From contig NZ_ATTH01000001.1 in assembly GCF_000419585.1 (NCBI RefSeq), forward strand, positions 1,324,005-1,388,004: 64,000 nucleotides of DNA, in the 5' to 3' direction. Shown here in pieces: positions 5,440-12,921 of the stretch; the first letter of the stretch is position 1; every line of letters starts with the position of its first letter. Position numbers and translations under genes: made by a program. The notes beneath the pieces are model-generated. The model saw only the letters and a program-made list of their open reading frames with translations. It was not told where the DNA came from and did not search any database. This stretch comes from Salisaeta longa DSM 21114. Lineage in GTDB: Bacteria > Bacteroidota > Rhodothermia > Rhodothermales > Salinibacteraceae.

Positions 5440-5515
5440 GGTCAGGTAGCTCAGGTGGTAGAGCAACGGCCTGAAAAGCCGTGTGTCGGCGGTTCGAATC
5501 CGCCCCTGACCACCA
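5440..5515 (+). tRNA. tRNA-Phe (GAA)
   Basis: 76 bases including an encoded CCA. The acceptor stem GGTCAGG (5440-5446) pairs with CCTGACC (5505-5511). The anticodon stem ACGGC/GCCGT carries the loop CTGAAAA with anticodon GAA. The T arm GGCGG-TTCGAAT-CCGCC is canonical. Discriminator A is followed by CCA. Confidence 0.97.
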
Positions 5516-5538
5516 AATATTGGTATGCAGTACCAGAC

Positions 5539-5615
5539 GGTCCGGTAGTTCAGTTGGTTAGAATGCTGCCCTGTCACGGCAGAGGTCGCGGGTTCGAGTC
5601 CCGTCCGGACCGCCA
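5539..5615 (+). tRNA. tRNA-Asp (GTC)
   Basis: 77 bases including an encoded CCA. The acceptor GGTCCGG (5539-5545) pairs with CCGGACC (5605-5611), and the discriminator is G as expected for tRNA-Asp. The anticodon stem CTGCC/GGCAG encloses CTGTCAC with anticodon GTC. It lies 23 bases after tRNA-Phe and is probably co-transcribed with it. Confidence 0.97.
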
Positions 5616-11732: not shown

Positions 11733-12431
11733 CTACACCCATCCGTTGGCTTTCGCCTCCTGGTAGCCCTTTGCCCGCAACTCAGACGCCGGGTTGTCCA
11801 GCCGCCCGTAGCCCCACTCGTTCCACGTGCTTCGGTCGCCGTTGTAATCGGTGTGCGAGTCGCGGCGGACCACCTCCAGCACGTCTGCGCCCAGGTCGGC
11901 CGCCAGCTTCCACGTCTCGGCCTTGGTCAGGTACATGAGCGGGGTGTGGATGCGCAGCGGCGCATCGAGCGCCAACCCGAGGCTCACCTGCATACTGTCG
12001 ATGAAGGCCCGCCGGCAATCCGGATAGCCCGAGTAGTCGGTTTCGCACATGCCGCCCACAAGGTCATGAATGTCATGTAGATAGGCATGACTCGCGGCGT
12101 AGCTCAAAAACAGCGCATTGCGCCCGGGCACAAAGGACGCCGGCAGGTCTTCGTTTTGCTCGTGGGCCGCGTTCATGTCTTTGTCGTGCTCGGTGAGCGC
12201 CGAGCCGCGCAGCGTGCCCGCAACGTCCATGACGTGCAGCGGCACCCCGGCCTGCTCGGCGATATGACGCGCCTGTTCGAGCTCTACGGCGTGTTTCTGT
12301 CCGTAGTCGAACGCCAAGGCCCTTACGTTCTCGAAATGCTCCAGCGCCCAAAACAGACAGGTGGTCGAGTCTTGGCCGCCGGAGAAAAGCACGAGCGCCG
12401 AGGCGGCTGGCGTTTGCGGAGGATACAGCAT
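11733..12431 (-). CDS. queC: 7-cyano-7-deazaguanine synthase QueC, zinc cysteines replaced
   Basis: 232 residues. QueC turns 7-carboxy-7-deazaguanine into preQ0 with ATP and ammonia, in the queuosine pathway. The PP-loop SGGQDS is at 17-22. The conserved blocks FDYGQKHAVE, FVPGRNALFLSYA and DYSGYPDCR are present. The C-terminal zinc site is odd: family members usually read T-C-Y-x-G-D-R, then W-G-Y-G-C-G-x-C-P-A-C. Here it reads TDYNGDRSTW, then WGYGRLDNPASELRAKGY, so the four cysteines are D195, R210, N213 and S216 while everything around them is kept. queD lies 10 bases upstream in the same operon. The substitution is clear in the sequence; whether zinc is dispensable here is unknown. Confidence 0.93.
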   Translation of the reverse strand: MLYPPQTPAASALVLFSGGQDSTTCLFWALEHFENVRALAFDYGQKHAVELEQARHIAEQAGVPLHVMDVAGTLRGSALTEHDKDMNAAHEQNEDLPASFVPGRNALFLSYAASHAYLHDIHDLVGGMCETDYSGYPDCRRAFIDSMQVSLGLALDAPLRIHTPLMYLTKAETWKLAADLGADVLEVVRRDSHTDYNGDRSTWNEWGYGRLDNPASELRAKGYQEAKANGWV

Positions 12432-12441
12432 GCGGAGGGTG

Positions 12442-12921
12442 TTAGGTTGCGGGAGAAACAGCAGCGGGGGCCGATTCGGGGGCGTGGTGCAGCGTGCGCG
12501 CGGCCTCGGCGAAACAGGTTTCGGTTTCGGCCAGCCGCACGCTCACGCGTGTGATGTTGTGGGCGCGAAACAGCGAAGCGCCTTCGTCTTCAAGGTAGTC
12601 GAGGACGTACGTTACCAGGTTCTCCGTTGTCGTATCAAACGGCAGGAGCACGACGTCGGTGCCAAGAGCGTGCATCGCCTCGCGCAGCGCCGTATCGTCG
12701 GTCGACACAAACGTGGCATGGTCGAACCGCTCCACGAGGGGCGCGACCAGGGCCTTCAGCTCTTTGAAGTCGATCAGGAGGCCGCGGGCGTCGGGCGTGC
12801 CGGCCACCGTCACGGCCATTCGGTAGGAGTGGCCATGCAGGTGCTGGCAGGCCCCGGCGTGCCAAGGCAAGCGATGGGCTGCTTCCCAGCGAAAACGTTT
12901 GGTTACTTCCATGAGAGCCAA
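12442..12921 (-). CDS. queD: 6-carboxy-5,6,7,8-tetrahydropterin synthase
   Basis: 159 residues (or 156 from the second ATG at 12912). It converts dihydroneopterin triphosphate to 6-carboxytetrahydropterin, the second step of queuosine precursor synthesis. The zinc histidines are H16 (EAAHRL) and H29/H31 (LHGH), and the catalytic Cys25 precedes them in ACQHLHGH. IDFKELK and FDHATF are the other family blocks, and ETETCFAEA carries the conserved Glu. It is followed by queC after 10 bases. queE, queF and a folE homologue are not in this window. Confidence 0.93.
   Translation of the reverse strand: MALMEVTKRFRWEAAHRLPWHAGACQHLHGHSYRMAVTVAGTPDARGLLIDFKELKALVAPLVERFDHATFVSTDDTALREAMHALGTDVVLLPFDTTTENLVTYVLDYLEDEGASLFRAHNITRVSVRLAETETCFAEAARTLHHAPESAPAAVSPAT

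Follow-up and report, generated by a model that had tools for sequence, protein, structure and literature searches.

The window, by which we mean the whole stretch of 64,000 nucleotides that was analysed, carries on its minus strand a queC gene (11733..12431) whose product, a 232-residue homologue of 7-cyano-7-deazaguanine synthase, is by its sequence a zinc-site-free variant and not a canonical QueC. In other QueCs, zinc bound by four cysteines ties the C-terminal knuckle, and an essential tyrosine lies next to the first of these cysteines. We hypothesise, with a probability of about three in four, that the gene encodes a genuine preQ0 synthase whose lineage no longer has the structural zinc site; what the data show directly are the substitution itself, its conservation, the catalytic residues that are kept, the co-occurrence of genes and the predicted fold. 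The protein would most likely be an ordinary preQ0 synthase in function, unusual in the way its C-terminus is held.

Profile searches placed the protein in PF06508 (215 bits against a cut-off of 22) and in the equivalog family TIGR00364 (210.7 bits against 150.3); the narrower model PRK11106 was not reached (194 bits against a cut-off of 378). Residues 193-223 translate as HTDYNGDRSTWNEWGYGRLDNPASELRAKGY, and SHTDYNGDRSTWNEWGYGRLDNPASELRAKGY occupies the place of the usual TCY...CxxCPAC of QueC. The whole protein has three cysteines, C25, C129 and C139, and none at the zinc site. All residues of the catalytic signature are present (SGGQDS, Y43, Q45, H47, E50, R104, N105, YPDC, K170 and Y196), and the ATP PP-loop, described as intact in the original prediction, reads SGGQDS at residues 17-22 (12366..12383, minus strand). 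A second queC with cysteines elsewhere in the genome had been named as one finding that would overturn that prediction. No second full-length QueC was found in the 3.4-Mb genome, where the sole other candidate covers 47 codons of a 477-codon frame and scores 21.3 bits, below the cut-off.

The former zinc-site loop spans residues 195-216 (11784..11849, minus strand), and the positions of the lost cysteines follow from ungapped alignment to closely related QueCs that retain them. Phage QueCs with the same scaffold and with cysteines align without gaps to the window segment HTDYNGDRSTWNEWGYGRLDNPAS, as do the viral contigs L140-L147 and others, which have the same loop, and the QueC of Escherichia phage CAjan. 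All of them pair the cysteines with D195 (11847-11849), R210 (11802-11804), N213 (11793-11795) and S216 (11784-11786), all on the minus strand. When distant QueCs of Bacteroidota were aligned with MAFFT, gaps opened and the cysteines were paired with D195, Y208, L211 and S216; we take the first register as correct because the closer Cys-containing homologues align without gaps. The replacement of all four zinc cysteines by these residues, as originally proposed, is thereby borne out. The interval first given for it, 11733-11840, stops just short of the D195 codon.

CAjan and L140-L147 share with the window the loop scaffold HTCYNGxR... and retain all four cysteines, of which the window QueC has none, and such sisters with the same loop allow a clean comparison residue by residue. 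The modified base dPreQ0 has been found in CAjan DNA by mass spectrometry (PMC6884629). We looked for an isolated phage combining measured 7-deazaguanine DNA with a Cys-free QueC, but CAjan has the cysteines, and so do the checked relatives of Rosebush and HVTV-1 (Godines and HCTV-16). Direct biochemical support was therefore not found among the phages checked.

Across the lineage, 79 distinct Cys-free sequences could be compared. D195 and N213 are invariant (79/79), position 216 is serine in 62, threonine in 16 and alanine in one, and position 210 varies freely (R, K, Q, T, D, V and others), with Arg or Lys in most bacterial members. The codons vary underneath: D195 is GAC in 41 and GAT in 38, N213 is AAC in 51 and AAT in 28, and serine at position 216 uses all of the TCN and AGY codons. 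Because 79 distinct sequences share the pattern with varying codons, it is not a product of chance, and the same consistency and synonymous variation rule out a sequencing error or a pseudogene. Residues Y43, R104, Y136 and Y196 are found in 79/79 sequences and correspond to Y35, R99, Y131 and Y189 of E. coli QueC, essential by mutagenesis as reported in a 2026 survey of PF06508 (PMC13329287). The remaining catalytic signature is also kept, with the exception of the variable V/P of VPxRN and of one sequence at a contig edge, which has a gap and then Glu at the first two PP-loop positions. It is very improbable that the gene is decaying or inactive and that queuosine precursors are salvaged from outside, even if TGT occurs without QueC or QueF in many genomes of the order and salvage is plausible there: residues that stay constant across 79 sequences while their codons vary synonymously, intact frames, conserved queD and queF neighbours and complete pathways show strong purifying selection.

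Within the window's order, a full QueC was detected in 35 of 114 genomes, and the zinc cysteines are missing in all 30 of the QueCs that were read (30/30), which answers how many relatives lack them. Scanning about 85,000 species genomes with sequence motifs gave 37 loci, a lower bound given the strict patterns, all of them Cys-free at the site; they fall in the window's order, in Cytophagales (Pontibacter, Spirosoma, Hymenobacter, Rhodocytophaga and others), in Planctomycetota and in Myxococcota. Viral contigs carry the same Cys-free type, usually adjoining a queD homologue. Among 394 sampled genomes of the phylum the type was found in only 15, of which 14 belong to the order and one (G275) does not. 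Another 21 carriers were read, most of them from outside the order, and in each the Cys-free gene is the single QueC-like match above 100 bits. The original prediction had left two options, a zinc-free QueC lineage or an enzyme with changed chemistry, and the former is the better one, given a sole QueC that keeps its catalytic residues and is common to the order, three other phyla and viruses.

In the genome outside the order, G275 (L262 6732-10793 and L263), QueD-, QueE- and FolE-like frames cluster around the Cys-free QueC, and a prophage is the probable source of the Cys-free gene. A normal Cys-containing QueC lies on another contig of the same assembly. Frames resembling terminase and portal, recognised by eye only, follow the cluster.

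In the phylogeny, the Cys-free group forms one clade (support 95) when the trait columns are included; when they are left out, the tree needs two changes, of which the well-supported branches force only one, and a single origin of the group is likely. Elsewhere among phages, a second Cys-free group resembles the window QueC in lacking the zinc cysteines and in lying beside queD, but differs in its short loop, SHT[AS]YDGxYPPxxxxH[AS][TN], and in forming a separate branch of its own (support 99-100). Its members include Sphingomonas phage MMDA13, Dinoroseobacter phage R5C, Pseudomonas phage PSASB_03 and Rhizobium phage RHph_X3_2; the isolated phages have queD, plus folE and dpdA where a wider stretch was read. 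The MMDA13 QueC was called canonical in the sense of having no GAT domain, and the missing cysteines go unmentioned in the passages found on it (PMC7472734). A third phage group of QueC-like proteins, also without zinc cysteines (L164 411-1238, L166 3971-4822 and L241 3495-4376; also L167 and L168), has the motifs SGGMDSS, THTSYKP or TNTSYKP, and KSASSVER, and shows 64% identity to a protein encoded by Flavobacterium phage immuto, which itself falls in the group. Judging from these sequences, the zinc site of QueC was lost at least twice, since the second phage group has a different loop and its own branch, and perhaps three times.

The main text of the PF06508 survey gives C(x)8CxxCxxC as the hallmark of QueC and mentions neither Rhodothermota nor a cysteine-free canonical QueC (PMC13329287). 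Within that main text we found no earlier report of a Cys-free QueC lineage, which does not by itself prove novelty. The finding should be surprising to specialists, since the zinc motif, by which QueC is recognised, is treated as defining, and it would caution annotators not to equate missing cysteines with loss of function. The zinc in QueC appears to be dispensable. We tentatively picture, at slightly less than an even chance, that the mechanism of QueC does not require zinc and that the metal is a structural clamp open to replacement, which disappeared on several occasions; one metal-free D/x/N/S solution would have travelled with phages and mobile islands and, in bacteria of several phyla, displaced the canonical gene to become their sole preQ0 synthase. 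If true, the zinc of QueC would be structural and replaceable, as shown by a conserved lineage of several phyla whose genomes have no other QueC, and studies of mechanism and structure would gain a natural scaffold free of metal.

The gene content around queC and in the genome points to a complete queuosine pathway. A queD gene encoding a homologue of 6-carboxytetrahydropterin synthase (12442..12921, minus strand; PF01242, 97.9 bits) lies 10 nucleotides upstream of queC on the same strand. It scores 78.8 bits against TIGR03367, below the cut-off of 89.25, and keeps the AAH and HLHGH histidines and the cysteine of CxxxHGH. The genome also encodes QueE (312 bits), QueF (94.8 bits against a cut-off of 86.9), TGT (474 bits) and QueA (402 bits). 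Of the 114 genomes in the order, 33 have QueF above its cut-off, and every one of these also has a full QueC; among the 79 genomes that lack a full QueC, QueF exceeded the cut-off in none (0/79). Two QueC-positive genomes of the order have no QueF, G403, whose assembly is 83% complete, and Salinivenus iranica (G435). Among the 21 further carriers, QueF was over the cut-off in 19 and reached 84.2 bits in one more. QueF reduces the nitrile of preQ0, and given this co-occurrence the Cys-free QueC very probably makes preQ0.

This association weakens the second original option, that of changed chemistry, in which the enzyme would stop at the amide (ADG) or take another substrate and so not be a preQ0 synthase. 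We consider it improbable. In its favour, LarE and GMP synthetase, PF06508 proteins in which the zinc motif has been lost or remodelled, have different substrates according to the survey (PMC13329287), and the Dpd island of Salinivenus would be compatible with ADG in DNA. However, LarE and GMP synthetase have also lost the QueC substrate motifs, all of which the Cys-free QueCs keep, and the co-occurrence with QueF, the reducer of the preQ0 nitrile, is near-perfect. The same differences set the window gene apart from these families: the ATPase of GMP synthetase and LarE (clusters 3 and 6 of PMC13329287) share with the window QueC the PP-loop ATPase fold and the lack of the QueC zinc motif, but they have none of the QueC substrate motifs and perform other chemistry. 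An identity as one of them was rejected, the LarE model giving 24.7 bits against a cut-off of 150 and the QueC motifs being complete. Likewise, Cap9 and QatC of anti-phage systems share the fold and the ATP site (Z 21.8 and 15.2), but, unlike the window QueC, they keep the cysteine zinc motif and have other partners, and QatC has lost the QueC substrate motifs, as the survey describes (PMC13329287). Such an identity was also discarded, the neighbour being queD and not a CD-NTase or qatABD.

The former zinc region of the window QueC is predicted to fold in place. An AlphaFold2 model built from 65 sequences and containing no metal reached a mean pLDDT of 93.8, with 94-98 over residues 191-232, and the Cys-containing sister L140 was modelled with similar confidence (90.0). 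AlphaFold2 can build the folds of metal sites without the metal, and therefore high confidence is no proof of zinc-free stability. Against QueC of B. subtilis (3BL5) the model gave Z 26.3 and 1.9 Å over 190 residues (model range 9-230), and against that of Pectobacterium/Erwinia (2PG3) Z 24.6; identity to the two over the structural alignment is about 40-49%. These canonical enzymes share with the window QueC all catalytic signature residues and the queD neighbour. The window protein differs from them in having D, R, N and S for the four zinc cysteines and a longer loop separating the first position from the other three (the WGYG insert), and most members of the Cys-free lineage have in addition a conserved C-terminal Gly-Trp.

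In the mechanism that we infer, which covers activity, a site free of metal, the hydrogen bonds that hold it and the direction in which the gene was transferred, the Cys-free lineage, common to bacteria of several phyla and to phages, would descend from Cys-containing QueCs. Its active site would be unchanged (the PP-loop; Y43/Q45/H47/E50; R104-N105; Y136-P137-D138-C139; K170; Y196), so that ATP would activate 7-carboxy-7-deazaguanine, followed by the addition of ammonia and conversion of the amide to the nitrile. The C-terminal knuckle would be held by a metal-free polar network, probably of hydrogen bonds among D195, N213 and S/T216, and in many bacterial members Arg or Lys210 could form a salt bridge to D195. 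Counting against a metal-free site, zinc is stated to be required for QueC function in the survey (PMC13329287). A further alternative is that the site binds a metal other than zinc, with D195, N213, S216 and perhaps H193 holding Mg2+, Ca2+ or Fe2+ in the same place. The invariant D195 and N213 and the near-constant Ser/Thr216 would suit oxygen ligands, and such invariance suggests more than a filler role; however, the Arg or Lys210 that most bacterial members place inside the former tetrahedron would be a poor neighbour for a cation, position 210 otherwise varies without constraint and leaves three protein ligands at most, and many viral members have Leu, Met, Val or Ile in place of H193. We regard this alternative as unlikely, though less so than changed chemistry, and favour the metal-free network. 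The preQ0 made by the Cys-free QueC would then pass to QueF and TGT for queuosine or, in Salinivenus iranica, to a Dpd island for the modification of DNA.

In Salinivenus iranica (G435/G472), queD-queC-queE-folE2 lie near matches to DpdA, B, D, E, F and H (L169-L171, G435:C90:8000-67000), and profile searches of the genome returned no QueF and no full TGT; from this gene content, its Cys-free QueC appears to feed Dpd 7-deazaguanine modification of DNA. A second PF06508 match in this genome (85 bits), considered as a possible Cys-containing rescue, adjoins a PfkB/deoxyribosyltransferase protein, as members of cluster 4 in PMC13329287 do, and for this reason was not counted as a QueC. Most genomes of the genus (g2: G147, G195, G199, G340, G434, G436-G438, G440 and G441) have neither QueC nor TGT, nor QueF over the cut-off, a pattern that would fit loss of the queuosine pathway. 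The comparison with Salinibacter that was originally suggested could for this reason be used only in part.

The TGT of the window genome (L175, G000:C1:504800-506900) also lacks zinc ligands, CxCxxC...H reading LxNxxS...Q, so that two zinc enzymes of one pathway, QueC and TGT, have lost their sites in this genome. Across the phylum the TGT zinc site is commonly lost in full or in part, independently of the QueC type (compare L177-L194 and L199-L237), and the TGT cysteines are kept in Myxococcota, in most Planctomycetota carriers and in some other genomes of the phylum. Pathway-wide zinc sparing as a coupled trait is not supported, given this independence of TGT loss from QueC type, the TGT cysteines of Myxococcota and most Planctomycetota carriers, and the histidines kept in the window QueD. 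The window also contains two tandem tRNA genes on the plus strand (5440-5612).
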